From Cliona cf. orientalis (taxonomy: Eukaryota; Porifera; Demospongiae; Clionaida; Clionaidae): a stretch of 64,000 bases of DNA. The stretch spans positions 4,650,001 to 4,714,000 of the forward strand of contig OZ005705.1 of NCBI GenBank assembly GCA_963930775.1. Reading direction: 5' to 3'. The notes beneath the pieces were generated by a model that had not been told where the DNA came from, made no database searches, and worked only from the letters and a program-made list of their open reading frames with translations. Positions 27,435 through 52,497 of the stretch are shown here, piece by piece (position 1 is the first letter of the stretch; every line of letters begins with the position of its first letter). Made by a program: the position numbers and the translations under genes.

Positions 27435-30400
27435 GGTACCATTTAATTGCGTGGGCGTGAGCGTCAGGATTGGCTAATTCAATTAGCGAATCGTGAAGGG
27501 GCGTGGCCGAAGAGGCCATACGAGTGCTTTTGGCCGCAGGTGGGCGTGTCCAGAATCGGCCAGGGATGATTATGCGCGTGTAATTAGCGACCGGAAATGG
27601 CCCCTGAAGAAAACACCGGTAATTGCCCACATCAAAGCAAGATCAAAGCATTCTTTCTTAACTATTAACCGCAACGACATTAAACACTAAGTAGTTAAAC
27701 ACTAAGTAGAAAAAAAAAGCATATTTAAATAATCTAATTCATGGGGGGATTGGGAGCACTTGGGGGGATAATTTTTATATGAGCACGCAGAATGGGTCAA
27801 AACTAGAGATTTGACCGGACAGATTTTTTATTCACACCTTACAATTAAAGTTATGGCCCTTTGAAGTTTTCCCATGTTTGTATAGGAAGCCATGCGTTTG
27901 CAATGTTTTCCACCCACGCGCTACGTGAGGGGCGGGGCCACGCGCGCGCACATTAACGTGACGACCATTACCCACTTTGATCAAAATTGATGTATAGGCT
28001 GCCTGCTTGCATTGTATGGCTCTACTATGCATCCAGCTCAACTATGTTGCCGTTTTTGGACAATTTTTTTTCTGCTTAGTGTTCAGGTCGCCTTGTTATA
28101 CACTAAGTAGAAAAAAAAAGTAAATTTAAATAATTAAATAATCTAATTCATGGGGGGTTTGGGAGCACTTGGGGGGATAATTTTTACATGGGCACGCAGA
28201 ATGGGTCGAAACTAGAGATTTGATGGAAGAGAATTTTGATTCACGCCTTAGAATTAAAGTTATGGCCCTTTGAAGTTTTCCCATATGTTTTTATAGGAAG
28301 CCATGCATTTGCAATGTTTTCTACGTGAGGGGCGGGGCCACGCGCGCACATCGACGTGACGACCATTACCCACTTTACTCAAATTGATGTATACGCTGCC
28401 TGCTTGCATTGTATGGCTCTACTATGCATCCAGCTCAATTATATGGTGGTTTTCGGATAATTTTTTTCTGCTTAGTGTCTGGTCTCCTTGAAAAAAAGAA
28501 AAGATTTAAATAATTAAATAATTAAATAATCTAATTCATGGGGGGTTTGGGAGTACTTGGGGAGATAATTTTTACATGGGCACGCAGAATGGGTCGAAAC
28601 TAGAGATTTGACCGGACAGATTTTTGATTCACACCTTACAATTAAAGTTACGGCCCTTTGAAGTTTCCCCATATGTTTGTACAGGGAAGCCATGCGTTTG
28701 CAATGTTTCTGCCCACGCGCTACGTGAGGGGCGGGGCCACGCGCGCACATAAACGTGACGACCATTACCAATTTTTTTGACAAAATTGAAATTTAGGCTG
28801 CCTGCTTGCATTGTATGGTTCCATTATGCACCCAGCTCGATTATATAGTGGTTTTTGGATAATTTTTTTTCTGCTTAGTGTTCAGGTCGCCTTGTTAAAC
28901 ACTAAGTAGAAATTAAACACTAAGTAGAAAAAAAACAAAAAAACTTAAATAATGTAATTCATGGGGGATTTGGGAGTATCTGGGGACATAATTTTTACAT
29001 GGGCACGCAGAATGAGTCGAAACTAGAGATTTGACCTGAAAGAATTTTGATTCACGCCTTAGAAATGAAGTTATGACCCTTTGAAGTTTCCCATATGTTT
29101 GTATAGGAAGCCATGCGTTTGCAATGTTTCCGCCCACGCGCTACGTGAGGGGCGGGGCCACGCGCGCACATAAACGTGACGACCTTTACCAACTTTTTGA
29201 CAAAATTGAAATTTAGCCTGCCTGCTTGCATTGTATAGTTCCACTATGCACCTAGCTCGATTATATGGTGGTTTTTGGACAATTTTTTTTTCTGCTTAGT
29301 GTTCAGGTCGCCTTGAAAAAAAAGAATTTAAATAATTAAATAAATAATCTAATTCGTGGGGGTTTGGGAGTACTTGGGGACATAACTTTTACATGGGCAC
29401 GCAGAATGGGTCGAAACTAGAAATTTGACCTGAAAGAATTTTGATTCACGCCTTTGAATTGAAGTTACGGCCCTTTGAAGTTTTCCCATATGTTTGTATA
29501 GGGAAGCCATACGTTTGCAATGTTTTCCGCCCACGCGCTACGTGAAAAACGGGGAATCCCCGTTAGGCGCGCGCACATAAACGTGACGACCTTTACCTAA
29601 TTTGGTCAAAATTGGAGTATAGGGTGCCTGCTTGCATTGTATGGCTCTACTAAGCATCCAGCTCAACTATGTGGCGGTTTTCGAACAATTTTTTTTTTCT
29701 GCTTAGTGTTCTGGTCGCCTTGTTAAACACTAAGTAGAAAAAAAAAAAGATTTTTAATTAATTAATTCAGGGGGGAACTGGGAGCACTTGGGGACATAAT
29801 TTTTGTACCGGCGCGCAGAATGGATCGAATGCAGAAATTTGACCTTCAGGAATTTTGATTCACGCCTTAGAATCAAAGTTACGGCCCTTTGAAGTTTCCC
29901 CATATGTTTGTACAGGGAAGCCATGTGTTTGCAATGTTTCCGCCCACGCGCTACGTGAAAAACGGGGAATCCCCGTTAGGCGCGCGCACACAAACGTGAC
30001 GACCTTTACCTACTTTGGTCAAAATTGGAGTATAGGGTGCCTGCTTGCATTGTATGGCTCTACTAAGCATCTAGCTCAACTATGTGGTGGTTTTGGACAA
30101 TTTTTTTTCTGCTTAGTGTTCAGGTCGCCTTGAAAAAAAAAAAAAAAAAAAAAAAAGCTTAATTAGGCCTAATTAAGCATGTGGGCGTGTTCCTGGCACT
30201 GTGTGGAGTGTGTGCATGTGCGTTAATGCAGGTTTTATTGCTTCCGATTGGGCGTGGCCTCACGGGCCAGTGCTTGGATATCGGCGCCTAAGACTTGACC
30301 TCGGCGATAGGTGGGCGTGTCCCGGATGCGGTGGTGACCTTTGAACCCCGGCAGGAGGTCAAAGGTGAGGCCATGTCAGTTAATGAGGCACTGTACGCCG

Positions 30401-31692: not shown

Positions 31693-33721
31693 ATGAAATT
31701 GCTGAGTGGAGAAATGGTGGTGGTGGTAGCCTTGTTCACTGGTTTGATTTACTCAGTCCTAGCTTCTGACGATGTTTGCTCTCATCCTTGGACAATTGTT
31801 AGTGAAGACAATGGAACCACAAAATGTGAGTGTGGAGACACAGTGCATGGGATAGTTAGGTGTGATTCTAATACATTTCAGCTGCAAGTCTTGGAATCAT
31901 ATTGTATGACACACAGTGATGCGCAAGGTACCACAGTTGGTCACTGCATAGTGACATTTCTTCACTTGTATACAACTTTGTAATGTCTCTACTCTGAATG
32001 ATGCCATGTGTGGTAGTCTTCACAGGACTGGTCAGATGTGTGGTGGCTGTGAGAAAGGCTATGCTCTCATTTAAGCCCCCCGTGCATGCAATCCACATAT
32101 TGACACCTCAATTATTGGGAATGGCAACAGCAGTGCGAGCCGAGCCAGCAAAGTATAATGACGAACATCATAGTGTATTAAGTACTAATACACAAAGAAA
32201 TAATAATAAGCCTAACAGTAACTGGGATGGGCTGTGAGTATTGCACTTTTAATTTTGGCTATGCTAGCCAACATAGCCATGGAAAAAAAACCTCTCCAAA
32301 AAACCTCGTTCATTGAGGAAAAATAAGAGAGGAAAAAAACTGGAAAGAAAAGCATCCCAGGCTATAATTAAATAGTAACAGTGACAAAACTATAATAGCC
32401 ATTCCTGTGCCAGTCCGTGTATATAATATATACAGAGCTTGCAGTTGGTCCTGGTCTCTTGTGCATCACTACCGATAGCCACTCCAGGGATGTTGATGCT
32501 TCACGTCCATATCTTCTGCATTTCACTCAAGAACAATGTGCAGTAAGTGCCACCCCCAAACGAATTAATAATAATTATATTATTATTGTTACCTTTAGAA
32601 ACTTTGCTGGGCAACAATGGAACTGTTGCGAGAGTGGCTATTTCCAACCCCGCAAGCCCATTTTATGCCAACACGCTGTCTCTGCCAGCTTAACTGGATT
32701 CAGCCATGCAGCCCTTGCTTGTCTCTGTCTTGTCTTTCAAGAATGCAATTATAAGCGCTAGCTAGCTGCCAGGCGCCACCGCCCACCTTATGCGCATGCG
32801 CACTATATGCATGCAGCTATAGTGCAGCAATAAGAGCTTATTTTCTGCCTAATTCACTACTGCAACACTCAAACGTCAGAAAATATACCTCCTCCTGTCT
32901 ACTCCTATAGTTTGACTTGTGTTGATTGTTCTGAGTACAAATATCACTGGCTAAAGTTTATTGCCATTGCACTAATGCCACTGACCACCTTTTATATAGC
33001 AGTATTGATCGGTCTTAGAATTAGTGCATTGTCACCAAATTTGGAAGTCTGTAGCTATAATACTTTGTCAACTGATAAGTGCCCCTGGTTCAGTGAGAGT
33101 TTACAGTCTTTATCTTCCTCTAATGCCCTTGACTCTTCTTAGGCTGACACAACTGATATTGTCCCTCTATGGTGTTTGGAATTTGGACTTCTTTCGTACT
33201 ATGTACACACCATTCTGCTTGCACCCTGATCTGACAACACTGCAAATACTGATCCTCGACTACACAGTTGCAGTCTATCCACTGTTGCTGATTTTCATCA
33301 CCTACATCTGTGTATCATTGCATGATCGCTACAGGGTGTTAGTTCTGCTTTGGGGTCCATTTTATCGATGTTTTGCCCGTATTCGCAGGGAGTGGTACAT
33401 TCGTAAATCTCTTGTTGATGTATTTGCCACTTTTCTACTATTATCGTATGTGAAAATACTCAATGTTTCCATTTCTCTTTTGATCCCAACTGCTTTATAC
33501 AATGTACATGGTCAGAAACTTCCTGAATATGTCCTTTATTTAGATGGCACAATCCAATATTTGAGCAAGATATCACATTCCTTATGCTATTCTTGCAATT
33601 TTTATGCTATCAATATTCAACATTTTTCCTATTATTGTTCTTAGTTTCTATCCCTGTCGATGTTTTCAGCGATGCTTGAATCACTTTCCATGCCAGGTGC
33701 AAGCACTACAGGTATCTATCA
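31693..33721 (+). pseudogene. Membrane-protein array copy A, decayed and interrupted
   Basis: This starts with a signal-peptide-like MKLLSGEMVVVVALFTGLIY, then a Cys-rich ectodomain with CSHPWTIVSEDNGTTKCECG and MCGSLHRTGQMCGGCEKGYA. It breaks off at 32066 at an insertion of about 825 bp. It resumes at about 32890 with PPVYSYSLTCVDCSEYKYHW and the membrane part WNLDFFRTMYTPFCLHP, EWYIRKSLVDVFATFLLLSY and LNHFPCQVQALQ. It stops near 33721, where unrelated sequence begins. A stop after the first 96 residues and several frame changes (near 33050, 33130 and 33580) confirm decay. It is closest to copy D (44013-45725), sharing most of its sequence base for base. The last three membrane segments and the C-terminus are missing. 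Confidence 0.85.
32436..32764 (+). other. Two exon-like pieces inside the insertion in copy A
   Basis: Within the 825-bp insertion, 32436-32542 follows an AG acceptor (TATACAG) and ends at a GTAAGTG donor. 32599-32764 follows TTACCTTTAG and reads in frame to TAA. The joined text includes DSHSRDVDASRPYLLHF, then TQEQCAKLCWATMELLREWL, and looks like folded-protein sequence. I do not recognise the parent gene. It may be a host-gene fragment carried by a transposon or a small segmental insertion. No terminal repeats were identified for the insertion. Confidence 0.4.
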
Positions 33722-33821
33722 AGGTCAAGAGCCGGTCTCAGACTCCATGCACCTCTACGATTGAGGGGCCGATATCATGCATGTATGCACTACATTGATG
33801 ACCTTTTACCACATGCACCAT
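33722..33821. repeat. Short dispersed repeat at the copy A breakpoint
   Basis: GATGACCTTTTACCACATGC followed by ACCATTCAACT resembles 56168-56200 (GACGACTCTTTACCATATGC then ACCATTACACT). It lies at the junction between the truncated membrane-protein copy and the NTPase remnant. Confidence 0.45.
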
Positions 33822-35293
33822 TCAACTATATAATAATATTATAGGGATATGGTCATTACAACATTGAGTATTCCTATCTAGCAGTAATTCCTCCCTTAAA
33901 AAAAGTTTCAAAGTAATATTTGGTGAAGTGTGAATGAAACGAGATTTCCAATTGATCAATAAAAAGGTGTTAATGGCATTTATCAACTCGAGATCTTTTG
34001 TATCAAGTTCCTCGATAAAGGATTTATATTCTTCCAGTGTGAGTGTGCCAGTGGTGGAATCGATAAGACTACGAGCAATCCTGTGAACAACAGTGAGAAC
34101 TCTCTTTGGTAGTGCATGTAATAGTGTTTTTTTTTCAAAGTTCGGTCGAAGTGCCAACAATAATCGCTGTTCCAGTGTTTTGTTCCCACCATTTCCACGT
34201 TGCGAGAGGACCTTAGAAGCAGACAACAAATCAATAAAACGTCCACCTACTAGTTTTACCACAGTTGCTAGTTCATCGCTTGAAGCATCGTTGCACAAAC
34301 AAGTTAAATGGTCCAAAGCTTGTTCATCCGTTATGTCACCTATGACTAATGTCACCTATGACTACCCTACCAATAATCTTGATGCAGACGATCGAGAGCT
34401 CATTAAATTTGGTATGAGGCTATCACTGCTAGCAAATGCCACAATAACCAGCTTATCATCGGACATATGCTTGCAGTGTCCTGCAACAGCTGCATTAAAC
34501 TCCTGCTGCTTCAATATTTGCGATAGATTGTCAAACACCACTATAGGAACATACTGTTTGTTCACGATGATCTCAGCAGCAGCTTTTTGTAATAATATAA
34601 TTATAGTCAAGGCAAACTTAAGACAAGAGTGTGGGTTATCAGGACAAACTTGTAAGGGTAACTTCAGATAGGAGTACAATATTGCCGAAAACCCACACAG
34701 TACTCATCGATTCTTAGCGATCAATACAAACTCTCATAGATACATCACCATCGACACCCACTGGAACATACAAAACACTGGGCCCAATTTCAATCAATGC
34801 CTGTCTAACAATCGTCGTTTTTCCGCAGCCATGTTGTCCTTCAATGAAGAAGTAACCCCCTGGGTGAAGAGGCTCATCATCCACTGATTGTGATCTTAGC
34901 AGGTCCTGAATATTACGTATTACACCATTTCTTGGTATATATATAGCAGGAAACAGAAGTGTTCGGTACCCCCACACTAATTGCAGCTTTTGCATTTGGT
35001 ACTATGCAAACTGTGTCGAGCAGAAATGAAATCACCAAACAGATAGGGAGAGCTGTCGTCATCATCACAGTAGTAATAACCTTTATAATTTTCTCATTTG
35101 CACACATGAATATAGGCAACATGCATCCCAGGACAATGGTGAAAATGGCAGTTTTCAATAAAAGCCACACGACAGAAACCTTTAAAACACCATACAGAAC
35201 CCTAAGATACCTTGCGTTTGGCGTATAAATGAGGTAGGTAGCAGATTTCGTGGTAACAGACAGACAGACAGACAGAGACACACACACACACAC
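33822..35293 (-). pseudogene. Broken P-loop NTPase gene with N-terminal membrane segments
   Basis: Reading the minus strand downward, 35293-34960 has two hydrophobic stretches (FTIVLGCMLPIFMC and MTTALPICLVISFLLDTV). 34960-34714 has YIPRNGVIRNIQDLLRS and a Walker A loop GYFFIEGQHGCGKTTIVRQA. 34679-34362 has a Walker B-like YVPIVVFDNL. 34355-33822 has GDITDEQALDHLTCLCNDA and a helical C-terminal region (KTLLHALPKRVLTVVHRIA). The frame changes near 34960, 34700 and 34360, so no single open frame remains. The GxHGCGKTT plus 'RNGV..I' layout resembles the ATPases found beside Crinkler-like and related expanded eukaryotic proteins; this is resemblance only. It lies next to the truncated copy A. 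Whether it was a host gene or a mobile-element gene is undecided. Confidence 0.6.
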
Positions 35294-35415
35294 ACAGAAC
35301 GACTACCGTAACCTCACGGCGCATGCGCGCCAATGGTTAAATAGAAAAAGTATAAGCAATGGTCAGCCAAAAGTGCATTAGCAGTCAGATGTGCAAAAGT
35401 ACTGTGCTTTGCAGG

Positions 35416-35848
35416 TCAATCCGACTCCCCTACCTGACGCTGAACATGTCTCAGTTCAAACTCTGCCTGGGGAGTTTGCAGTATAGTTGCAACTTGCCTC
35501 ATTGAAGCTGACGAGTGTGCAGAGTATGAAGGCATACTATCGTATACTTCCACTACCCCAGGAGGAGTGAGAATATTTGAGGCACAAATCCAATGGCTCT
35601 GTGAAATATTCATTATCTGGACAAAGTTTTTGGCACCTGAACAATACTTACTAGCAGCAGCTACTATAGTATCCTGAAGGCCATTGACAGTAGGATTGGG
35701 ATTGCAAAAGCTTATTAGCAGCATTAACATGTTTATCACTGAGCCATTTCCCATTGACTAGGGCTTCCTTGTCCTGATTGGTCAAAGCCAAGTCTTTGAG
35801 CCAGAAGCTAAGCAAACAAGAATTATCACTGCCACTACTGACACTCAA
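35416..35848 (-). pseudogene. Ulp1/C48-like protease fragment, broken
   Basis: The minus strand encodes pieces of a cysteine-protease-like domain. WLKDLALTNQDKEALVNGKW precedes LSDKHVNAANKLLQSQ, and later come MNISQSHWICASNIL (HW pair) and GVVEVYDSMPSYS (Asp). The order fits the Ulp1/adenain-like (C48) fold, which occurs in host SUMO proteases and in several classes of large mobile element. The copy is broken and incomplete, with the cysteine end not seen. I treat it as a fossil, probably mobile-element derived; family unresolved. Confidence 0.5.
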
Positions 35849-35859
35849 AGGAGTGTCAG

Positions 35860-36530
35860 GGCTATTCCTCTGCTGGCTGCATACCGGGTACTACATCGGA
35901 GAGGAGTGATTGGCCCCTGTGCCCCCAACCAGCCGCCTCCCGCCAAACCCTTGTGTAGCTTAACCAGACCATTTGCGAATGCCAGGTATTAAACATGTGG
36001 TTGGTGTTTGTGTGTTGTATGCACATGAGCTGTTCAACTTGCCTGTTGTATGAATTTTCCACTGTGAAACAGAATTTGACCACCTTTTTTGGAGTGTCAA
36101 GGTTAATGTCAGTCACTTGATGTCAGTATCTCCATATTTTCCTTCCAAGTTCCTGAAGTGGTAGGACGTACAATGTCATAATAATATGTGACCTGCTCCA
36201 GGAAAAGGGAGCGTTCAGCATAAATATTCATTTTCTAATAATGGCTAAAATGTGAAAAATCAGTTTTTCTTAAATTTTTTCGTTTTTGTCTATCAAAAAT
36301 TGAAGGTTTGGCTTTATTTTGATATAATATTATGTTCATACACTTGTATGAAATAAAATGTAGCTATGGGGGCAATTAATACCTCCGATATATGCAACTT
36401 AATACAAAAACGACTCTATCTACGAGACCCTAGCTACCTGATTGTATAAAAAAGGTCATAATTTCATCATTTTCTTTGAAACTAGCACCATTGTACTCAG
36501 CGTAGATAGAGCTATCTATCCATGCCAAAA
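35860..36530. other. No recognised gene
   Basis: This interval lies between the protease-like fragment and a nested repeat cluster. It is AT-rich in its right half, and I see no supportable exon or inverted repeat. Confidence 0.45.
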
Positions 36531-36582
36531 TCTCAATATTGTTGAGGAACACTTTTCCAGTTCCCCTGAAGATATATAATCG

Positions 36583-36806
36583 AGTAAATTTCCTCCCTAA
36601 GACATAGAGGCAGTGACCCCCAAGATATCGATAAAATGTACCGTCCAGAACATCATTAAAATAGCCTCAACACCCCCCAAGACTTCATCAAGCTCAGCTA
36701 CCCCATCAAGATGTAAGGTAAAATGGTACATTTTAATGATATCTTGGGGGTCACTACCTCTATTTTAAGTCTTGGGGGGGGGGGGGGGGGTGGGGGGATT
36801 TACTCA
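36583..36806. mobile_element. Hairpin MITE with GAGTAAAT ends and a poly(G) tract
   Basis: GAGTAAATTTCCTCCC...AGACATAGAGGCAGTGACCC pairs with GGGTCACTACCTCTATTTTA and a terminal ATTTACTC. The arms of roughly 60 bp close on GATAAAATGTACC/GGTACATTTTAAT. The right arm is swollen by a run of about 20 G. It is nested in the 36535-37383 repeat. Confidence 0.7.
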
Positions 36807-36810
36807 ATTA

Positions 36811-37340
36811 CCGTACCCTCGCGAAAGAGGGCCCACTACGGAATGTCCGCCCACCCCCCACTTTGGGCTCAATTTCCTGTTAAGGTCTAGTGTTTGCTCG
36901 AATATGCGCCCATGTGTAGCTGCCCTTGAAAACGTAGCTCAAATGGCTGGTTTATGAGGACTGAACTTCGTAAGATCGATAGGTAACGTGTTAAACAGCT
37001 GTAAAACGTAGCCTAGCTAGCTTTATTCCACGTTTCAGCAGAAATAAACTAACGCACAAGGCTAGCGATCGTAGCCACGCCCACTTAATAGAGCTGCACT
37101 CAACGAAACACGGTGAAGAATCGCGGCTGCCCTTGCTCTGAATTGGTAACCGTGCTTGAATAAGGCTGAAATCAATAGTAGCCGCTGCTACTATTCATAT
37201 TATGAAGCTAGCGTGGGTAATTTACCTGGGCGCTCTTTCGCGTATAAATGCGATACTGATACCTCGAATATCGGCCCACCCCCCAATCTTGCCCCAATGT
37301 AAGGTGCACCGCCCATGGGCCCTCTTTCGCGAGGGTACGG
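36811..37340. mobile_element. 530-bp MITE with TA-flanked CCGTACCCTCGCG ends
   Basis: TA|CCGTACCCTCGCGAAAGAGG at the left is matched by CCTCTTTCGCGAGGGTACGG|TA at the right, a perfect inverted repeat of about 24 bp. The interior has further inverted text (CCGCCCACCCCCCA and TCGGCCCACCCCCCAA). No transposase frame is present. It is nested beside the GAGTAAAT element. Confidence 0.8.
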
Positions 37341-37447
37341 TATATGTCTTCAGGGGAACTGGAACAGTGTTCCTCAACAGGGGTGTATCTTCATTAACTG
37401 TACTAGCCCATTGTGAGAATCCTCAGGCTATAAGATGACTCGCATTA

Positions 37448-37800
37448 CAGTTGTGGATCCAGGATTTCTAGAATGGGGGTTTAAGGGGTAGTACAGTGAA
37501 ATTTTAGAAGCCACGCCCACTTTGGGGAAAAACCACGCCCATTTCGCTCGTTTTTGAGCCAAACTACCAGCCCTACCAGTCCACATATATAGTCCAATCG
37601 ATCTGTTTTCGAACAAATTTTCTTCTAAAGCATTTTAAGGTGAGCCATAGCAGGAGTTTTCTTAGTTTTATTGCCAGAAAGGGGGGGGGGGGGGGGGGGT
37701 TCCATTTAGTTTATCATCAGTAGCTACTTGTTAGTGTTAGATGCAGCCCATGTGAAGGGGGGTACACTTGCACCCCCCTTACCCCCTGGATCCGCCACTG
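37448..37800. mobile_element. hAT-like MITE with CAGTGGCGGATCCAGG-type ends
   Basis: The left end CAGTTGTGGATCCAGG and right end CCTGGATCCGCCACTG pair with two mismatches, and are typical of hAT elements. The interior holds CCACGCCC repeats and a poly(G) run near 37681. The flanks (TCGCATTA to the left, GAGGCATGG to the right) are adjacent, apart from 5 bp, in the paralogous block at 46342-46356, which therefore preserves a near-empty site. No clear 8-bp duplication remains. Confidence 0.7.
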
Positions 37801-38010
37801 GAGGCATGGTGTTCTATTCACAAGTTTGATTCAATGTAAATCAACATTGATGAAGGTTACAGCAGCAGCATGACAAATTGTTGATACAGCTAGTACATGA
37901 TTCCTTGATGCTGCATAAACAGAGTGCAACAGAATACCTTCAGTAAGTAAACTGAAATGTTCAAGAGGCTTCTACAGTCTAGTATACTCCACGCCAAGCA
38001 GCTTACAACA
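37801..38010 (+). repeat. Duplicate of the 5' flank of the intact membrane-protein gene
   Basis: GGCATGGTGTTCTATTCACA and the following ~200 bp, including AATCAACATTGATGAAGGTT and AGAGTGCAACAGAATACCTT, match 46351-46556, just upstream of the 46647 gene. No coding sequence follows here. The block instead runs into unrelated sequence and then the second TTAA element, so this is a beheaded copy of the repeated unit. Confidence 0.75.
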
Positions 38011-38240
38011 AAATTTCTTCATGCCAAGATTGGTAACCTTTAATCCAACAATAATTTCTGATATTTTCAACAACAGCAGTTGAAGGAACTATGCAATCAG
38101 GCTATAATATTCGAATCCATGAAGAAATTACCTGGGTTTTATGCACACTGGTACCCCTCCCCCTTAAATTCTGCTTGCCCATCAGATCCCAGGAAGTTTA
38201 TGGGTGAAATCCTGCATGGCTACGGCATGCACGCAGTTAA

Positions 38241-39665
38241 GGTACCATTTAATTGCGTGGGCGTGAGCGTCAGGAATGGCTAATTCAATTAGCGAATCGT
38301 GAAGGGGCGTGGCCGAAGAGGCCATACGAGTGCTTTTGGTCGAAGGTGGGCGTGTCCAGAATCGGCCAGGGATGATTATGCGCGTGTAATTAGCGACCGG
38401 AAGTGGCCCCTGAAGAAAAGGCCGGTAATTGCCCACATCAAAGCAAGATCAAAGCATTCTTTCTTAACTATTAACCGCAACGACAAAAAAATTACACACT
38501 AAGTAGAAAAAAAAAGCAAATCAAATAAATAAATAAATAATATAATTATTGGAGCTCTGGGCAACATCTGAGGTTACAATTTTTATATGGGCATGCAGAG
38601 TGACATGCATCTAGAAAGATGATAAAGCCGGATTTTTGATTCACAGCTTTAATTTAAAGATATGCCCCTTACAATATCTCCCATAGGATTGCACAGGGAA
38701 GCCATACGTTTGCAATGTTTTATGCGCATGCGCTACGTGAAAAACGGGGAATACCCGTTTTGCACGCGCACATATTGCGCTGACGACCTTTACCAGATTT
38801 GAGTACAGGTTGCCTGCTTGCACTGAATGGCTCTACTATGCATCCAGCTCTACTATGGGAGGTTTCCGGACAATTTTTTTTCTGCTTAGTGTGTGGTCCC
38901 CTTGAAAAAAAAAAAAAAAAAAGCTTATTAGGCCTAATTAAGCGTGTGGGCGTGTTCCTGGCACTGTGTGGAGTGTGTGCGTGTGCGTTAATGCAGGTTT
39001 TATTGCTTCCGATTGGGCGTGGCTTCACGGGCCAGTGCTTGGACATCGGCGCCTGGGACTTGGCCTCGGCGATAGGTGGGCGTGTCCCGGAAGCGGTGGT
39101 GACCTTTGAACCCCGCGAGGAGGCTTTGGGGGCGTGGCAGGAGGTCAAAGGTGAGGCCATGTCTGTTAATGAGGCACTGTACGGCGGTGCGATCGAGGGG
39201 CCTGTACGGCTGGACGGAAGCTGACGATGGTTTGAAGCGGATGTGGTTGCGATGACGTGTTGTTACTCCGCCCACACAGGAAATGAGGTGAGCTCTTGCG
39301 TGGGCGGTGTGGCAGAACGGCCTCCAAGTGTTTGTGTGTGTTTTGGCCTTGAGGAAGCTGTGTGTTTTAATTGGGATTGATTGTGGGCTTCCGGTGGACA
39401 TCCGGTGGTTAGTAGGCACTTGATTGAGAATGGTGGTCCTTGGGGAAGAGGGTGGGGCTGTTTTGGGCGTGGCCTGGCCCCTCCCTTCCGGCTCGGCTTC
39501 CGGTCCATGGAGGATATTAAATGAACACTTCCGGCTCTAGCAGCCACACCCCTGAGACCTGTGCAATTAAAAGGGCGTGGTTACACAACATGCACCTCAC
39601 TAATGACTTTGATGTGGTTTAGGTGTCATATCCCCCACCTCACGCCCACGCAATTTAATGGTACC
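38241..39665. mobile_element. 1.4-kb TTAA-flanked non-autonomous transposon, copy 2
   Basis: It has the same ends as copy 1 (GGTACCATTTAATTGCGTGG and CCACGCAATTTAATGGTACC), with TTAA directly outside on both sides (38237-38240, 39666-39669). The left ~250 bp and right ~740 bp match 27435-30879. One ~400-bp CACTAAGTAG unit (about 38493-38905) sits in the middle, and it carries the AACGGG-type hairpin variant. A 23-bp segment in the right part (GAGGAGGCTTTGGGGGCGTG) is present here but lacking in copy 1, so neither copy is a simple parent of the other. Confidence 0.85.
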
Positions 39666-39739
39666 TTAATCGGATGGTAAAATTCTGTTTACTATAGCTT
39701 ATGTGGGAGAACAGTGAAGGATTTTCCCTCTGTCCGGTA

Positions 39740-41040
39740 GTGGGACGATTGATAATAAATTTGGGTTTATACTGAATTAGAACACCAAATACTTGCACTA
39801 CCGTGGACCGGTTGTTCTAAACCACAGATCAAACATTTGGACTACATGGTGCAATCACAAATTACATGAAATATTGAGCAGTGATCTTGTTATACAGTTG
39901 CTGCATGTGTGACAAACCCTGCAAATGAATGTTTTTATGCTTGTATTAATTATTATGCTAATTTTATACATTTTCAGTATAATAATTATAGGACAGCGAT
40001 AGATTTATACTTTGACAAAATCCTGATGTGGTATATATAATATTGAGTTTAGTGTGGAATCATACAAATGAGATAGTGTGTCAACTATTCACTCACGAAG
40101 CCTTGGAAACACTACTCGTCATGCTTCTACAGCTATAATATTATTATAATATTAACAGTTCCGTCACAGTCTTCGGTCTCTCGGATAACATAGCTAGCTT
40201 CCACTGGAGATTCCCAAAATCCAAACTAAAGGTTTTCAAAATTTAACTACAATGTTTCATGTCTTGGATAAACTCAACAGCGAATCTGCAGGGGGTGGCT
40301 TGCATTAACAGGGCCGTAGGAAGCAATTTGATACTTGCACGGCCATCACCCACAATGTGTGACCACACGCATTTAGAAGATTAAGCATGTGTATAGGTCA
40401 TCAGTGCCACACTGTGGGCTGAACTAGCTAGCCTGGTATTTAAAATTTAGTACATAATTTTTTTACATTTAATACTATTGATATTCTTACCTGACTGAAG
40501 TGCTTTTACGCAAGTATTAAAAACAATAGGCCAAGTCGCTTAATGTGTCTTAGTGTAGCCATAGCCATCTTTTTCTATAACCGTATATAAACGCTTACTT
40601 GGAGAGCTCTACTTCTGATATTGGCCACACCCACAATTTACGTACGTGTACGATAATATTACCTGCATGTAATAGCAGCATGAAGGAAAAACGTTCAACG
40701 GCTATGGCCGTTGCGACTCCTACAGCCCTGAATTAAGTAATGCGGTGCTCCCCAAGTTAACCACTGAATTTGATGCTGTTACATTACCAATGTAATACAT
40801 AATATTGACACCCATGTCTGTACTTGTGTAGGTGTGTAGAATATATAATCTATGGTAGGTGGAAGCATGGCTACCAAAGTTTCATTGTAGACATGGTACA
40901 CCTGGTCCAATGAGTAAGTTACACATAGTATCTATGCATACGAATTGTTGGTGCATATCATAGTACGATCACAAAACAGTTTCTATGCACAACAAGGTAG
41001 CCTAAGTGAGTATTATTTTTAGGATAGATTATTCATGGGA
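39740..41040 (+). repeat. Duplicated 5' flank of copy B
   Basis: CAAATACTTGCACTACCG...ACCACAGATCAAACATTTGG corresponds to 43130-43200. CTACCAAAGTTTCATTGTAG and later text corresponds to 43855 and 31505. So the 1.2 kb upstream of copy B is a paralogue of the flank of copy D, with unequal loss of pieces. It contains no exon. Confidence 0.6.
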
Positions 41041-41991
41041 GACTATCCACTGTTGCTGATTTTCATCACCTACATCTGTGTATAATTGCATGATCGCTAC
41101 GGGGTGTTAGTTTTGCTTTGGGGTCCAATTTATCGATGTTTAAATTTTGCTCGTATTCGCAGGGAGTGGTACATTCGTAAGTCTCTTGTCGATGTATTTG
41201 CCGTGAAAATACTCAACATCTCCATGTCTCTTTTGATCCCAACGGCACTATAATATTATAATGTACATGGTCAGAACTTTCATGAATAATATTATGTCCT
41301 TTATTTAGATGGCACAGTCCAATACTTGAGCAAGAGTCACATTCCTTATGCTATTCTTGCGATTTTTATGCTATCAGTATTCAAATTTTCCATGTGATTG
41401 TTCTTAGTCTCTATCCCTGCCGATGTTTTCATCGATGCTTGAATCACTTTCCATGCCAGCTGCAAGCACTACAGGTATTTATGGATGTTGTCCAGGGCAG
41501 CTTCAAGACGACTCCATATGACTGTAGATACTTTGCTGCTCTCTACTTGTTACTTCGGGCACTTAATCTTGTATCACAGGGAATACTTCAAAATTCACTC
41601 TACTACCCATTAATAGCTTTAATTATTTCATTGAATCATGGTTTGTTTCATGAAACCTCGAAGATATTTCTGGCATAATTTGATTGATTCACTTCTACTA
41701 GCTGTAACTACTGTCAGCATCCTTATAGTATTCACAACAAATGTAGCCATTCTTGTTATTGATCCAATTCTCTCTCCTGATGGAAATGGTGCCCTAATAA
41801 TCACTTGCCTAATTTTAATATTGCCTGCGGTGTACTGGATAATTATGCTGGTCTATTTTATGACACCAAAGAGTGTATTGACCTACTTCTGTAGAAGGTG
41901 CCATTCAGTCAGGTGTTGGAAATGTTGTCAAGCTGAAGAAACGGACTTTGAGGAGGAATATGAGCAAACTCCATTACTAAGTGCTTATTAA
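41041..41991 (+). pseudogene. Membrane-protein array copy B, C-terminal half
   Basis: The copy starts abruptly at YPLLLIFITYICV, equal to about residue 266 of the intact gene, so the ectodomain and first membrane segments are deleted. It continues through EWYIRKSLVDVFA, YLDGTVQYLSKSHIPYAILA, DCRYFAALYLLLRALN and SLLLAVTTVSILIVFTTNVA, and ends YEQTPLLSAY. A stop within the first line, a 20-bp loss near 41200 (LLLSY missing) and frame changes near 41390 and 41640 mark it as a pseudogene. It is closest to copy D. Confidence 0.85.
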
Positions 41992-42342
41992 CACTTGTGA
42001 AACAAGATTTAACACAAGATAGCTTTTATCTTTAAGAGTATGTGTGCTTGCCTGTAAATTTCAGTCCATATCATGAGTGATAAAGAAGTGATAGTCATGC
42101 TGAAGTCTTGTTTCTTGGAGAAGTGTATAGCTAATTGTATTACTTTGAGCATCTTAATAGTCTGTATGTAATACATGTTCACTTGTATCCCAATGCTATG
42201 TTGCTGCTAAGTAAATATTATAGCTACATCATCGTGCTCTACATAGGAGCAGTGCAATAATAAGCACCCTCACTGAGTCAGATAAGCAACAGGCAGTGCA
42301 ATATGAATAGCTCCAGGATATCACTAGTACAATCTGTGCTAG

Positions 42343-42992
42343 CGATGGTATTGCCCTATGCTCTATAGTACACTCCTCTCCAACCCAATTACGGACTGCT
42401 CTACTAAGAAATGGCTCTAGGAAATACAAAGAATAAAATGGTGGATTACCGTATAGCCGGAAATATTGGTGGGACTTAAATTTGGCGGTTGAGCCCAAAA
42501 TCACTATTGCAAGAATATTGGCGGATTTAAATTTGGCAGTTCAGTACGGGATCGCTATACGTATATATGCGAGTAAGAAATTTTGGCGGATTTTTAATTT
42601 GGCAGTTGTAATACAGACCGCCAAACCGCAAAATTTAATTCCCTGCCAAATTTTCCGGCTATACAGTATATGTGTGGAGTTTTACTACAAGGGATTGTCA
42701 GATGTGATCCAAGTAATTTCAACTTGGAGGTACTCCACTGTTACTGTCTAACCTACAGTGAAATTCTGAATACCACTATAGTAGGGTACTGCCTCACTAC
42801 TTAATTGTCATGCATGGTACTCAAACCGCTACAAAAAGCAATATTCAAAATATAAGTGACCTAGATGGTAGATCTATAGTCTTCATAGGACTAGTCACTG
42901 AGATGTGTGGTGGCTGTGAGAAAGGCTATGCACCTTCTGTCTACTCCTATAGTTTGACTTGTGTAGAGTGCTGGTTGAAGTGCACTAGCTGA
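42343..42992 (+). pseudogene. Membrane-protein array copy C, N-terminal fragment split by a MITE
   Basis: 42343-42440 matches the first codons of the intact gene (compare 46680-46760, CACTCCTCTCCAA... and AATGGCTCT). A 218-bp MITE follows. 42670-42992 then resumes at GTGTGGAGTTTTACTACAAG and covers YSEILNTTIVGYCLTT, MCGGCEKGYA and SVYSYSLTCVECW in shifting frames. The match ends near 42992. It is closest to the intact gene at 46647, not to copies A/B/D. It has no membrane part. Confidence 0.8.
42449..42666. mobile_element. 218-bp MITE with TA-flanked CCGTATAGCCGG ends
   Basis: TA|CCGTATAGCCGGAAA pairs with TTTTCCGGCTATACAG|TA, with one mismatch. The interior repeats TTTGGCGG and its variants on both strands. 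The element interrupts pseudogene copy C, whose two sides give the empty site by comparison with 46760-46815. A truncated relative lies at 62795-62945. Confidence 0.8.
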
Positions 42993-43466
42993 CTTATGCT
43001 AGTAATGAATATTCTTTATTACCACACTAGGTCAAGTTAGCAAGCATACGGTCCTCAAGTAGAGGCTGATTTCGTGGCTAATAACAGTAAATTGTATTAT
43101 ACTACAGTCTCATTTTATTTCTTCATAGGATAAAATACTTGCACTGTCATTGCTGCATCAACCATAGATCAAATACCTATGTTTTGGTTATACACTCGCA
43201 AAACTAGCTATAAGGTGAAATGCAAAGCATTGAACAGTGATCTTTGCATGTATTGCAACAAGAATACAGTTGCTATGCACTTGTAGGCAATACTGGACAT
43301 GTATGGCTATCTCTATTTGCATTTTTAGTAGGATATTGACAGATCTTTATTCTGACTCTGTAAATCCAGATGTGGTATAGAGCTATATTGAGTTCATCAT
43401 GGAACCATGCGACATTACTTAATATGGTCTCAAATTTCACCCACTTTAATATGAGTAAACGCAATA

Positions 43467-43684
43467 CCGTAAAGGTACATTTTTCTGCGCGTGAAAAAAT
43501 TATGCGAATTGGTCAAAACGAGCCTCTTGAAAAATTTACGCGATTTTTATTTATGCGTTTAAACATCGCATGTATTACAAATGTATGGCGCAATAATATT
43601 TATGCGATACAAATTTATGCAACCGCCACTTGACTCGCATAATTTGCATAAATAAAACTCGCGCAGAAAAATGTCGCTTTACGG
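43467..43684. mobile_element. 218-bp MITE with TA-flanked CCGTAAAG ends
   Basis: TA|CCGTAAAGGTACATTTTTCT and its inverted counterpart AGAAAAATGTCGCTTTACGG|TA form terminal repeats of about 26 bp (continuing GCGCG). The AT-rich interior contains several TTATGCG motifs. It lies in the flank upstream of copy D, where copy B's corresponding flank lacks it. Confidence 0.8.
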
Positions 43685-44012
43685 TAGTCAAATCGGGAGG
43701 CACACTATGCTAGCCATTGCTAGGGCACCAGAGTTTTCAATCACTCTTGTTTGATGCTATTGATAAACATAATACACAACATTGCTATTCAATGATGTAT
43801 TATGTGATGCCGATGTCTGTACATGTTTAGTTGGTAGCATAACTACCGAAGTTTCAATGCATATCAGTGAGTACACACTATTGTTCGTGCATACCATAGT
43901 GCGACCACAGTAATGACAAACAAGTAAGAAATGGCTAACTTCCCAAGATTAGGAAAATACAACCTCTTTTTTTTTTACTTAAAACATTCACTTACTCAGA
44001 AGCTGCCTGGCT

Positions 44013-45725
44013 ATGAAACAACTGAGTGGAGAAATGGTGGTGGTGGTAGCTTTGTTCATTGGTTTAATAATTCACTCAGTCCTAGCTTCCGACGAAGCAT
44101 GCTCTCATCCTTGGACAATTGTTGGTGAAGACAATGGAACTACAAAATGTGAGTGTGGAGACACAATGTACGGGGTGGTTTGGGTGTGATCCTAACACTT
44201 TTCAGCTGCAAATCTTGCAGTCATATTGTATGACACATAGTGATGCGCAAGGTACCACAGTTGGCCACTGCATAGTGACATTTCTTCACTTGTATACGAC
44301 TTTGTACACTGCCAGTAATGTCTCTACTCTGAATGATGCCATGTGTGGTAGTCTTCACAGGACTGGTCAGATGTGTGGTGGCTGTGAGAAAGGCTATGCT
44401 CCTCCCGTCTACTCCTATAGTTTGACTGTTTTGAGTACAAATATCACTGGTTAAAGTTTATTGCCATTGCACTAATGCCACTGACCACCTTTTATATAGC
44501 AGTATTGATCAGTCTTAGAATTAGTGCATTGTCACCAAATTTGGAAGTCTGTATAATACTTTGTCAACTGATAAGTGCCCCTGGTTCAGTGAGAGTTTAC
44601 AGTCTTTATCTTCCTCTAATGCCCTTGACTCTTCGTAGGCTGACACAACTGATATTGTCCCTCTACGGTGTTTGGAATTTGGACTTCTTTCGTACTATGT
44701 ACACACCATTCTGCTTGCACCCTGACCTGACAACATTACAAATACTGATCCTCGACTACGCAGTTGCAGTCTATCCACTGTTGCTGATTTTCATCACCTA
44801 CATCTGTGTATCATTGCATGATCGCTACAGGGTGTTAGTTCTGCTTTGGAGTCCATTTTATCGATGTTTTGCCCGTATTCGCAGGGAGTGGTACATTCGT
44901 AAATCTCTTGTCGATGTATTTGCCACTTTTCTACTGTTATCGTATGTGAAAATACTCAATATCTCCATCTCTCTTTTGACCCCAACGGCACTATACAATG
45001 TACATGGTCAGAAACTTCCTGAATATGTCCTTTATTTAGATGGCACAGTCCAATACTTGAGCAAGAATCACATTCCTTATGCTATTCTTGCGATTTTTAT
45101 GCTATCAGTATTCAACATTTTCCCCATCATTCTTCTTAGTCTCTATCCTTGTCAATGTTTTCAGCGATGCTTGAATCACTTTCCATGCCAGCTGCAAGCA
45201 CTACAGGTATTTATGGACGTTTTCCAGGGCAGCTTCAAGACGACTCCATATGACTGTAGATACTTTGCTGCTGTCTACTTGTTACTTCGGGTACTCAATC
45301 TTGTATCACAGGAAATACTCCAAGACACACTGTACTATCCCTTAATCGGTTTAATATTCTTTATTACTTCATTGATGGTTTGTTTCATGAAACCTCGAAG
45401 ACATTTCAGGCATAATTTGATCGATTCACTTTTACTTGCTGTAGCTACTGTCGGTATTCTTACGGTATTTACAATAAATGCAGCCAGTCCTTACATTGAT
45501 CCAATTCTTTCTCCCCATGGAAATGTTGCTGTTATAGTTGGTTGCCTATTGTTACTATTGCCTGCTGTGTACTGGATGATTCTGCTGCTCTACTTTGTGA
45601 CACCTAAGAGTGTATTTACCTACTTCTGTAAAAGGTGTCATTCACTCAGAAGGAAATGTTATCGAGCTGAAGAAATAGACTCTGAGGAGGGTAACGAGCA
45701 AACTCCTTTACTAAGCAATCTTTAA
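44013..45725 (+). pseudogene. Membrane-protein array copy D, nearly intact
   Basis: The start MKQLSGEMVVVVALFIGLII is a signal peptide. The ectodomain CSHPWTIVGEDNGTTKCECG and the MCGSLHRTGQMCGGCEKGYA box follow, but an extra base near 44185 and a loss of about 10 bp near 44428 (at SLTCVDCSEYKYHW) change frame twice. From 44475 to the stop one open frame of 416 residues covers all later membrane segments and ends EEGNEQTPLLSNL. Compared with copy A the membrane part is well preserved, so inactivation is recent, or the N-terminal differences are assembly or sequencing errors. Introns do not explain the two frame changes, since copy E codes the same part in a single exon. Function is as for the intact gene. 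Confidence 0.75.
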
Positions 45726-46646
45726 CACTACTAAAACATTAAGTCCAAGAGACACAAGACAATTTTTATCTTGTATATACTGATAAGAATTACGTGTGCT
45801 GAAGTCATGTTTCATAAAGAGTGTACGAACCTAACATTATTATGATAGCATTTCCGTGATGTGGTGAAGAAGTTGAAGTGTTACACCACTCTTTCTTACA
45901 CCCACAGATAATGACTTGCTCCAGCCTACTATAGCTAGCTATATTCATTGATGTTAGGTACGTGCATGGTATGATTGTGGCTTACCTGAGGGTGCTCACA
46001 ATAATATGACAATGCCATAATGCAGTTAAAGTCTGTACTGAAGATAGACAAAGAATGCTCTGATTATTTTGTTTGTTAGGAGGTGACTATAATATTTGTG
46101 CTGAATCTTTAAAAAGTAGCTATTATAGCCGCACTAATATACAGGTGTAGCTGTGCTCCTATTATCTGGAACCTTCTCCAAGTAAACTACATAGGTCATA
46201 ATACATGTACATGCATGAAGTTCATGTATACATAATCTCAAGTTCAGCTTTCAATGACATCCACGAAATTACATACTGCTATAATATTACACCAGGGCAA
46301 TACTTGGGGTATAACTACTGGAGACAGTGTAATAAAATAACGATTCGCATTATGCTGGAGGCATGGGTTCTATTCACAAAAGTTTGTTGATTCAGTGTAA
46401 ATCAACATTGATGAAGGTTACAGCAGATGTATGACAAACAAATATTGTTGATACAGCAAATCCTTGACACTGCACAGAGTGCAACAGAATACCTTCAGTA
46501 AACTGAAATGTTTATGAAGCTTCCACATATGGATTCGTGTCCTTTGTACTCCACAAAAAACCTTTTTTGCCAGGCTTAAGTTTATAAGCATGCATGCATG
46601 CTGCATGCATATGAAGTACGTTACACTTAACAGAGTGTAGTGCAAA
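45726..46646. other. Spacer between copies D and E
   Basis: No exon was recognised. Its right part (46342-46556) is the flank duplicated at 37440-38010, so it is likely to contain the promoter of the intact gene. No TATA box was identified with confidence. Confidence 0.5.
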
Positions 46647-48371
46647 ATGTCTGAATGGGTGAGCTTGTCTGTGCTAGTGGCAGTATTGTCCCATGGTCTA
46701 GTATACTCCTCTCCAAGCAAGTTACAGACTGCTCTACTGTCAAATGGCTCTGAGATGTGTCTTCGCCCGTGGACTTTGCAATATGAAGAGAATGCAACTA
46801 TGAATTGTAAGTGTGGAGTTTCATTACAAGGGATTATCAGATGTGATCCAAGTAGTTTCAACTTGGAGGTACTCTACTGCTACTGTGTAACCTACAGTGA
46901 AATTCTGAATACCACGGTAGTAGGGTACTGCCTCACTACTTGTCATGGCACTCATACTGCTACAAGAATTGATGCTCACAATGTAAGTGACCTAGATGGT
47001 ATCATGTGTGGTAGTCTTCACAGGACTGGTCAGATGTGTGGTGGCTGTGAGAAAGGCTATGCTCCTCCTATCTACTCCTACAGCATGGCTTGCGTAGAAT
47101 GCTCTCATTACAATTACAATTGGCTGAAGTACATTGTTATAGCATTTCTTCCACTGACTGTGTTCTACATATTTGTGGTTGTGTTTAGAATTAGTGCCTT
47201 TTCAGGTAACTTAAATGCACTCATTCTAACTAGTCAACTGATAACTATCTCAGCACTTTTACGCTACTCTCAACAGACTCTTACTGATATGTCAACTTCA
47301 GCTGTTGTAGTTATGCAGTTCTTTATGACTCTGTATAGCTTGTGGAACCTGGATTTCTTCCGTACTCTGTATGCACCATTCTGCTTGCACCCAAAGCTGA
47401 CAGCAATTCAGACATTGGCTCTAGATTATGCCATAGCTGTCTATCCTCTAGTGCTCATTACTCTGACATATGTTACTGTGACACTACACGATCGCTGTGG
47501 TATACTCATCAAGCTTTGGACTCCATTTCACAGGTGTCTGTCACATTTCCGCAAAGAATGGCACATACGTAGGTCACTAGTAGATGTATTCGCCACATTC
47601 ATCTTATTATCTTACGTGAAAGTTCTGGATATCTCTTTCAACATTCTCACTCCAGTAAAGCTGTGGACTGTGAATGGAACAGAAGCCAAAGAAACATTCC
47701 TATATTTTGATGGAACTGTGAAGTACTTTCGAGGAGAGCACATTCCTTTTGCACTACTTGCTATTGGAATGCTGTGCATTTTCAATGTCTTTCCACTACT
47801 TTTACTTGCTGTCTATCCAAGTCGATGCTTTCAGAGATGTCTAAATCACTGCCATTGTCAGTGTCAGATTTTGAGAATGTTTATGGACAACTTTCAGGGA
47901 GGTTTTAAAACAGAACCACATGACTACCGATATTTTGCTGCTTTCTATTTATTTTTGAGATTTGTGAACCTTACAACTATGGCATGGACCAGGAGCCCTT
48001 TATACTTTCCTTTGACTGGCCTCTTGCTTGGTCTTGGCTCATTAACTGTTGCTCTGGTTCGGCCTTGGAGGTGCTGGTGGCACAATATTCTTGATTCACT
48101 ATTGTTGGCTTCACTTTCTGCAAGTGGAACTTTCTTTTTTGCAATTGGTGTTTCTTCTCGAGCAATTGATCCCATTCATTCATTTGGTGGTACCCTTCGT
48201 GGTGTCTCTGCATCACTCTCACTAGTGCCTGGTGTGTGTGGCACAGTGATGCTGGTTTACTATCTCACTACCAACTGCAGACACAGAGTTAGAAAGATGC
48301 TAAAAAAATGCTGCCTTGCAAGAAGAGTATCATATCTAAACAACTGTGATGAACAAACACCGCTAATATGA
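46647..48371 (+). CDS. Intact Cys-rich multi-pass membrane protein, array copy E
   Basis: This is one uninterrupted exon of 574 codons. I do not recognise a characterised family. Residues 1-21 are a signal peptide. Residues 22-158 form an extracellular Cys-rich domain with several NxT/S sites, CLRPWTLQYEENATMNCKCG (38-57) and the signature MCGSLHRTGQMCGGCEKGYA (120-139), followed by VECSHYNYNWL (150-160). About nine to ten hydrophobic segments follow: near 161-181, 187-207, 219-236, 258-280, 311-332, 366-390, 426-444, 452-471, 482-502 and 521-540. Highly conserved loops are WNLDFFRTLYAPFCLHP (233-249), EWHIRRSLVDVFATF (304-318) and YPSRCFQRCLNH (390-401). The basic, Cys-rich tail ends in DEQTPLI, an acidic-dileucine-type sorting signal. 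The layout suggests a plasma-membrane or endosomal receptor or transporter; the role is unknown. It is the only copy here with a clean frame, so probably the functional member. Confidence 0.9.
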   Translation: MSEWVSLSVLVAVLSHGLVYSSPSKLQTALLSNGSEMCLRPWTLQYEENATMNCKCGVSLQGIIRCDPSSFNLEVLYCYCVTYSEILNTTVVGYCLTTCHGTHTATRIDAHNVSDLDGIMCGSLHRTGQMCGGCEKGYAPPIYSYSMACVECSHYNYNWLKYIVIAFLPLTVFYIFVVVFRISAFSGNLNALILTSQLITISALLRYSQQTLTDMSTSAVVVMQFFMTLYSLWNLDFFRTLYAPFCLHPKLTAIQTLALDYAIAVYPLVLITLTYVTVTLHDRCGILIKLWTPFHRCLSHFRKEWHIRRSLVDVFATFILLSYVKVLDISFNILTPVKLWTVNGTEAKETFLYFDGTVKYFRGEHIPFALLAIGMLCIFNVFPLLLLAVYPSRCFQRCLNHCHCQCQILRMFMDNFQGGFKTEPHDYRYFAAFYLFLRFVNLTTMAWTRSPLYFPLTGLLLGLGSLTVALVRPWRCWWHNILDSLLLASLSASGTFFFAIGVSSRAIDPIHSFGGTLRGVSASLSLVPGVCGTVMLVYYLTTNCRHRVRKMLKKCCLARRVSYLNNCDEQTPLI

Positions 48372-48841
48372 TTAGTTAAGACTACGACGACTTGCTGACT
48401 AATAATGTATTAATCTAGCAAGCAGATTTTTGCTATAATGGACACTGACCAAGGTGATGCAAATGCTGATTTTCAATAATTATTACACTATTTAATAGAC
48501 ACACCCCATCACATTAGTTAGATAATTAACAAAATAATTATTATTCTACTATGGTCGACAGAATATAGATAGGGGTGGCTTCCATGGATAGAAAGCAATT
48601 GGCCAGTATATGTAGCTTTCCATGGGGGCTAAGGTATTACAATTATTGTACTAAGATCATTGCATCAGGGAAGATTATCTTACTTTTTATCACGTTTGAC
48701 GAAAACAATGCGTTGTTGCCATTATTTGCCAAGTGACGTTGCACACATATCACATACGAATCCAACCTGATTGTGTGCTTAGAGAATAAAAGTAACCACA
48801 ATAGTGAGTTTCCCACCTAACAAGAATATCATTCTGAGTTC
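48372..48841. other. Spacer between copies E and F
   Basis: No exon was recognised. AATAAA at about 48784-48789 could serve as a distal poly(A) signal for the 46647 gene. It also lies only about 55 bp before the copy F start. Confidence 0.4.
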
Positions 48842-50615
48842 ATGATGTCGAGGAGGCAGCTGGTGTACATTATTGTGGCTTGGTTGGCTGTGATTGCCTG
48901 TAAATCCATGGGAATCAGAGATGGTATTCTTGGATCAATGGAGTGTCAGAAACCATGGACAATACCAACGGTGGAGAATGGAACAGTAGAGTGTTCTTGT
49001 GGAAGTCAAATAAATGGAGTTGTAGAGTGCCATCCTGAATCATGTAAGATAAAGCTTTTGTACTGCCACTGTATATCTTACAGTACCATCTTGAACACAA
49101 CAGTAGTAGGCTATTGCCTGGGCACGTGCAGTAGAATCATGTACAGAACAATCCATGCTAGTAACACGTCTGAACTAGATGAGGCAATATGTGGTAGGCT
49201 TCACAGGACTGGTCAGATGTGTGGTGACTGCAAGAAAGGCTATGCTCCTTCTGTCTACTCCTATGATCTGGCCTGTGTGGAGTGCTCTGACTATAAATAC
49301 AACTGGTTAAAGTACATTGCTGTTGCATTCCTTCCATTGACCTTCTTCTACATGGCAGTTGTTGTCTTCCGAATAGGTATCATGTCCAGGGAGTTGCAGG
49401 CATACGTCTTGATTTGTCAGCTGTTGAGTGCTCCAGGATTGTTAAGATTTCTTCACTTGTCAACCAAGGATGATGCTATGGGAAGAGATTTCTTTCGTGT
49501 GCTCAGTACCATTTATGGAATTTGGAATTTAGATTTCTTTCGCTCTCTTTACCCACCATTTTGTTTGCACCCAAAGTTAACAACACTTCATATACTTGTT
49601 CTCGACTATGCTGTTGCGGTTTATCCAATGCTACTGATTTTGATTACCTATGTGTGTATTCTCCTGCATGATAACAGTACTGAGACTTGCCGCCTGGCTA
49701 TGGAGTCCTTTCCATAAGTGTATGGTACACTTTCGAAGACAGTGGCTTATTAGACAATACCTGATTGACGTATTTGCACTCTTTCTTATACTATCATATG
49801 TAAAAATTTTAAGTGTGTCCTATGATATCTTAGCTCCAACAAATTTATTTGACATTTACGGACATAGAGTCCAACATTTCTTTGTGTACTTTGATGGAAC
49901 AACACAGTACTTCAAGGGTACCCATGTCTATTTTGTAGCACTTGCTCTGACCATGACTTTCACATTCAATATCTTTCCACTGGTATTACTAAGTCTTGCA
50001 GTTTATCCTTCACGTTACTTTCAAAAAGTCCTTAATCACTTTCAGTTTCGTAGTCATACACTCATTATATTCATGGATACTTTTCAGGGGAACTTTAAAA
50101 TATGGCCATATGACTGTCACTACTTTGCCGCCTTTTATTTGGTTCTAAGAATGGTCAACCTCTCAGTGCTTATTTGGACCAGAAGTGGTTTATATTTTTA
50201 CCTTTCAGGTTACATAATTATTCATCTTTGCCACATTAGTAGTTGCCGCATTTAGACCTTACCCCAAAATGCGTCATACTATTGTTGATATTATACTACT
50301 ATTATCAGATTCTGTTTCCTTAGCAAGCTTTTGGTACTCAGTTTTCTTCACTGCTTCATTTTAGATCCCTCTCATTGTGCTGGTAAGAAGAGCCTTATAG
50401 TCAGCGGCCTCCTTGTCTCTTTACCGGCAATATATGCAGTGCTTTTCCACTTACACAAAATGCTACCAAGGTTGTTAATGATTGAACTAAAAGCTTTGAT
50501 AAATCGATCCAGAGATGACTGTCACAGAGAGAGGAATTATCAATACAATACAAGTGATGAACACATACCAATTTTGCCTAAATTCATCAACATTGTCATT
50601 GTCATAGTTTTGTAG
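48842..50615 (+). pseudogene. Membrane-protein array copy F, diverged, about three frameshifts
   Basis: The first 290 codons are clean: signal peptide MSRRQLVYIIVAWLAVIA, ECQKPWTIPTVENGTVECSC, CGRLHRTGQMCGDCKKGYAP, and WNLDFFRSLYPPFCLHPKLT. The frame then changes at about 49675 (LLHDN) into 49690-50255, with WLIRQYLIDVFALFLILSY, YFDGTTQYFKGTHVYF and DCHYFAAFYLVLRMVNL. It changes again near 50210 and near 50340, and the tail ends DEHIPILPKF. Frame changes are few and the rest is conserved. So it is either a young pseudogene or a working gene damaged by sequence errors. It is the most diverged copy and forms its own branch. Confidence 0.75.
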
Positions 50616-52436: not shown

Positions 52437-52497
52437 TAATTATAATATAATTATATACTATAACTATTAATTCAATATGAAGTGATATAGCTAGCTA

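Follow-up and report, generated by a model that had tools for sequence, protein, structure and literature searches.

Composition of the array and its surroundings

The 64,000-nucleotide window (the whole stretch of DNA analyzed here, from the sponge Cliona cf. orientalis) contains six related gene copies (A-F), all facing the same way on the + strand and located near 31.7, 41.0, 42.3, 44.0, 46.6, and 48.8 kb. An earlier note on this DNA had placed six same-oriented copies at these locations, which we confirmed by a tblastn search of the whole window with the copy E protein (E ≤1e-3): every match beyond E itself was confined to 31717-50219, and all were on the + strand. The E-D match has an E-value of ~1e-137 and the E-F match one of ~2e-134, and given these values, chance likeness among the copies is not an issue. 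Copy E (46647..48371, +) is an intact, intronless coding sequence in which a single open frame of 574 codons runs from the ATG at 46647 to the stop at 48371, and its 574-aa product served as the template for comparing the copies. E was also correctly called the one intact survivor, as it alone has an unbroken frame and the other five copies are all broken.

Copy A (31714..33719, +, with an in-frame ATG also at 31693) carries a 14-base gap and small frameshifting insertions, has lost its 3’ end and stops early at 33719, and is cut after 32066 by an insert of ~822 bp (32067-32888). Copy B (41040..42004, +) is missing its first half and contains an in-register stop together with frameshifting deletions; its EQTPLL tail is kept. 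Copy C (42333..42972, +) consists of E-like ectodomain fragments in two pieces (42333-42418 and 42669-42972) that carry stops and frameshifts. The ectodomain of copy D (about 44013..45725, +) is broken twice, by a one-base insertion near 44180 that is immediately followed by a stop and by the loss of ten bases near 44420, while its membrane part remains open for 434 codons and also keeps the EQTPLL tail. Copy F (48842..50615, +) is nearly full length with a DEHIPIL tail and has three frameshifts, located between 49675 and 49698, at about 50220, and at about 50365. Since the frame-breaking gaps in D and F measure only 1 to 10 bases, introns in place of frameshifts were ruled out for these copies. 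Three sets of gaps were not scored as lesions: one of +2 and +10 (in B, +13) near the tail, common to B, D, and F and adding up to whole codons; a 5-base gap close to the start of A and D, which have their start codon elsewhere; and gaps of 5 and 1 bases at the diverged N-terminus of F, six in total. Assembly error or polymorphism could account for some of the scored lesions. Both C (~42897-42900) and F (~49677) carry an insertion of four bases, aligned as ACTG, at different gene positions, and these insertions are possibly excision footprints, or else chance.

All members with an ectodomain had been said to share one sequence or a close variant of it. This was accurate for A, D, and E, in which LHRTGQMCGGCEKGY is exact, and for F, which has LHRTGQMCGDCKKGY, but not for C, in which the sequence is decayed; B is without that region. 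The WNLDFF and KSLVDVFA-type loops attributed to the long copies were found wherever they could be, with WNLDFF present in 4/4 copies spanning its position (A, D, E, and F) and SLVDVFA or YLIDVFA in 5/5 (A, B, D, E, and F). A further + strand stretch (37798..37976), previously described as a beheaded flank, resembles the upstream flank of E (46355-46527; 79% over 190 columns) and has no gene body after it, as tblastn of E against the window detected no E-like coding sequence there. A dispersed repeat would give the same picture.

The remainder of the window holds a variety of other features. Directly after copy A, there are minus-strand open frames (33822-35757); of three ORFs tested against Pfam in this interval, one gave a weak ATPase hint (E 0.064) and the other two matched nothing. 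The ORF at 35416-35757 may encode a transposon protease of the Ulp1 type. A satellite or dispersed element lies left of copies A and B: a tandem unit of ~400 bp is present in six copies at a spacing of 388-423 (27694-30160), and pieces of 38237-39669 are 71-97% alike to it, as is, in inverted orientation, a relative at 5532-6040. Units of ~57 bp, with copies up to 96% alike, form a tandem array at 52189-52879, and a perfect inverted repeat at 57173-57554 has 113-nt arms that are 100% complementary and 156 nt apart, resembling a recent foldback or MITE-like element. Two direct copies (1942-2198 and 60599-60846) are 89% alike and 58.7 kb apart. Pfam tests of ten window ORFs gave matches of a eukaryotic character, among them an amidohydrolase piece (7413-8102). 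PDS5-type pieces (PF20168) are found on the minus strand at 19353-19625 and 21004-21339 (E 6e-17 and 9e-17, respectively), an exonuclease/endonuclease/phosphatase piece at 57827-58105, and a weak reverse-transcriptase fragment, under its cut-off, at 6498-6986.

Predicted features of the copy E protein

The hydropathy of E reaches a peak of 1.51 over residues 1-19, and a signal peptide with a putative cleavage site is predicted at 46647..46706 (+, ~residues 1-20). The ectodomain (46707..47123, +, ~residues 21-159) contains 13 Cys, four N-glycosylation sequons, and LHRTGQMCGGCEKGY, and two further sequons occur at residues 343 and 441. All 13 of the ectodomain Cys are also found in F (13/13 in the alignment, counted by eye). 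Neither C78 nor C99 is found in A or D, and this joint loss suggests that the two residues may pair, in line with the loss of one disulphide.

From the hydropathy of E and D, the membrane part (47124..48263, +, ~residues 160-539) is predicted to cross the membrane nine times. Beyond the signal peptide, a scan of E at a cut-off of 1.2 also returned nine hydrophobic stretches, but these are not the nine of our reading, which drops 187-207 and adds 427-447, a stretch that scores below the cut-off in E and above it in D. Of the D stretches corresponding to 187-207 and 215-238, only the first passes the cut-off. Either 187-207 or 215-238 may therefore serve as the crossing, which would yield nine crossings and place the strongly basic loop at residues 282-310 inside; if both crossed, there would be ten crossings and the basic loop would be outside. 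A lumenal N-terminus combined with a cytosolic tail requires an odd number of crossings. Under the nine-crossing reading, K+R per residue is 0.158 inside vs. 0.067 outside, a tally that is not independent because the loops were picked by eye. Overall, nine crossings are a consistent reading of E, for which the tally is no test. Two AlphaFold2 models were of very low confidence (mean pLDDT 34.7 and 36.9) and were unusable. The combination of seven crossings and a 7TM profile that marks a GPCR was not seen in E, which has nine hydrophobic stretches at the cut-off used and 0 Pfam families.

A pattern search located an acidic-dileucine motif, CDEQTPLI, at the C-terminus of E (48345..48368, +). The tails of the copies end in CDEQTPLI (E), NEQTPLLSNL (D), YEQTPLLSAY (B), and DEHIPILP (F). 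E and the 434-aa ORF of D each contain a single match to the pattern [DE]xxxL[LI], in both cases in the tail, and the tail of B has one as well, the cytosolic side of these tails being a prediction; DEHIPIL of F does not fit the pattern. In the aligned tails of E and D, we counted by eye 5/26 identities before the motif and then 5/5 within it (EQTPL). A 12-residue tail of E composition shows the pattern in 1.0% of 100,000 random draws, and shuffling the last 30 residues of E produces it in 0.9%. The motif is kept in only two independent lineages, namely E, and B with D.

Searches for relatives and family history

The earlier note had recognized no described family and had suggested a profile search of E as a check, and our searches of Pfam, NCBIfam, PHROGs, and the PDB are in agreement with it, as no named transporter or receptor family was matched. 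Full-length E had no Pfam match at E ≤1 and four other pieces had none above cut-off, with weak hints that included DUF7536 for the second piece of F (E 0.066) and T4SS_pilin for its first piece (E 0.75). NCBIfam returned 0 families for three proteins, PHROGs a single weak match among two proteins (for D, E 0.23), and the PDB 0 sequences with either E alone or an E-D profile. Six scans of viral contigs gave 0, 86, 32, 26, 67, and 3 pattern matches, none of which was confirmed by tblastn, and two scans of prokaryote genome contigs gave 68 and 50, again with none confirmed. As the scanned collections are viral and prokaryotic, this absence of relatives says little about animals. The literature, at the level of abstracts, yielded no description of this protein family.

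A lead at the outset was DUF7630 (PF24633), which matched the membrane-proximal Cys motif below threshold in 2/2 members of the set examined (A4), with a best E of 0.0019. The scores were 13.9 bits for F, 14.0 for the D piece, and 18.7 for the E piece, compared to a gathering score of 27, and the membrane-proximal Cys motif aligned to profile positions 19-45 of 45. Among ten Cys-preserving shuffles, 0/10 matched DUF7630 and 2/10 matched other families (E 0.002 and 0.0033). Since shuffled sequences gave chance matches of like strength, the DUF7630 match is no evidence by itself, and this lead was set aside after the shuffles. DUF7630 was not mentioned in the literature searched.

We placed the copies in an unrooted GTR+G tree. 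Unreliably aligned parts were masked, which in E positions meant everything ahead of 47438 for B and everything except 46808-47103 for C. The proposed subgroups A/B/D, C/E, and F held, as 100/100 bootstraps recovered both the A/B/D grouping and a separation of E+C from all remaining copies; the branching order inside A, B, and D was weakly supported (bootstrap 53). By codon comparison, dS was 0.14 for D-A, 0.21 for D-B, and 0.20 for A-B, whereas E-C was at 0.51 overall (0.38 in the ectodomain) and both E-D (2.2) and E-F (2.5) were at or near saturation; several values among E, D, and F, such as that for D-F, could not be computed. The dN/dS of D-A was 0.31 (35 synonymous changes in 267 sites vs. 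38 nonsynonymous in 891; Fisher p 1.2e-6), that of D-B 0.46 (p 4e-4), and that of A-B 0.40 (p 0.003), with the Fisher tests assuming independent sites and taking rounded counts. Copies A, B, and D therefore show purifying selection against each other. The D-A ratio was similar in the ectodomain (0.33) and the membrane part (0.28). Ectodomain ratios were 0.31 for E-F and 0.39 for E-D, the membrane part of E-F was at 0.11 on a saturated dS of 4.67, and the ectodomain of E-C gave 0.64 (p 0.057), which is not clearly under 1.

A, B, and D carry their lesions at different positions. Together with the ratios below 1, this indicates that these copies worked after duplication and died separately. Thus, the array is supported as a tandem family under birth-and-death evolution, as the earlier note had argued: the tandem paralogues are of different age (three divergent units, one younger subgroup), their inactivating lesions are scattered and arose separately, and purifying selection preceded their death. 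In nucleotide identity, A and D are 94% alike over the body and 81% over the 5’ part. As the latter includes noncoding flank and the codon dS values are 0.19 and 0.12, we do not claim a gene conversion mosaic of A and D.

Proposed place of action, rival readings, and known systems

Motifs of the form [D/E]XXXL[L/I] are signals that AP-1 recognizes at the trans-Golgi network and that AP-2 recognizes at the plasma membrane, according to PMC5297682. Because the tail signal of E resembles those read by adaptor complexes, we favor adaptor-driven sorting to endosomes or lysosomes, and we give about an even chance to the reading that this birth-and-death array produces an adaptor-sorted endolysosomal or recycling membrane protein. 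E would enter the secretory pathway via its predicted signal peptide, its predicted disulphide-bonded and N-glycosylated ectodomain would face the lumen or the outside, and the chain would cross the membrane nine times to end on the cytosolic side with DEQTPLI. The clathrin adaptors AP-1, AP-2, and AP-3 would then read this tail and either bring E to endosomes or lysosomes or retrieve it from the surface for recycling; the motif may indicate surface recycling and not the lysosome. There, the conserved membrane part would function as a cargo receptor, a channel, or a transporter, and the ectodomain would cap it on the lumenal side.

A possible but doubtful alternative is that the copies belong locally to a widespread, uncharacterized family of animal membrane proteins and reflect no more than ordinary copy-number noise within it. 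Apart from the sub-threshold DUF7630 match (best E 0.0019; 18.7 bits vs. 27 for the E piece), this draws on uncharacterized sponge, cnidarian, and lancelet proteins that presumably have similar multi-crossing modules preceded by a Cys motif, and other members of the supposed family would have long ectodomains ending in a DUF7630-like Cys motif. If these animal proteins are related, the array would be one local offshoot of an unstudied family with database entries. However, chance matches of like strength arose in 2/10 Cys-preserving shuffles, and full-length E matched no Pfam model even at E ≤1. It is far less probable still that the whole array is dead or dying and that E is open by chance and without function. 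Five of the six copies are broken, but E has 574 sense codons free of lesions after diverging deeply from both F and D (dS >2).

The earlier note had likened the array to receptor or immune-type arrays. In an array of chemosensory or immune-type surface receptors, a Cys-rich ectodomain would bind variable ligands and turnover would diversify recognition. The tandem copies and their frequent decay suit such an array, as does an E-F ectodomain that evolves faster than the membrane part (0.31 vs. 0.11, the latter on saturated dS). Yet there is no gene-wide positive selection where dN/dS is computable, the two parts of D-A are alike (0.33 and 0.28), every ectodomain Cys of E is kept in F, and no receptor, lectin, or signalling family was matched in Pfam or NCBIfam. 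With dN/dS, where computable, below 1 in both parts, no such family match, and a sorting-type tail, the analogy found no positive support, and we consider it unlikely.

Tandem birth and death is a well-known process, which here acts on an unstudied protein, and the sorting-type tail turns an unknown membrane protein into a hypothesis on its place of action. If orthologues occur across sponges or other early animals, the product of E would be a candidate constituent of endocytic or phagocytic membranes. A bolder version of the adaptor-sorted reading, which we offer as speculation and think improbable as a whole, is that early animals have an undescribed family of endolysosomal or phagosomal proteins with nine crossings, a Cys-rich cap in the lumen, and a sorting code like that of LIMP2, and that its copies turn over rapidly with changes in the diet or symbionts of a filter-feeding host.

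Among known systems, the array resembles the NLR, SRCR, and GPCR tandem families of sponges and corals in expansion and turnover, but a Pfam search of E detected no domain of theirs. Expansions of this kind are reported for sponges, with NLR genes covered in PMC5041008. The TM9SF (nonaspanin) proteins are endosomal and have a lumenal N-terminal domain, nine crossings, and a cytosolic tail, much like our reading of E, but differ in that E matched neither their profile nor any other Pfam family at E ≤1. LIMP2 (SCARB2) is a two-crossing CD36-type protein, unlike E, and as E has no sequence match to solved structures, the sorting code is its sole likeness to LIMP2-type proteins. According to PMC5297682, the LIMP2 signal is DERAPLI and its routing proceeds via AP-1 and AP-3; on that account, LIMP2 (DERAPLI) and E (DEQTPLI) both end in D-E-x-x-P-L-I.
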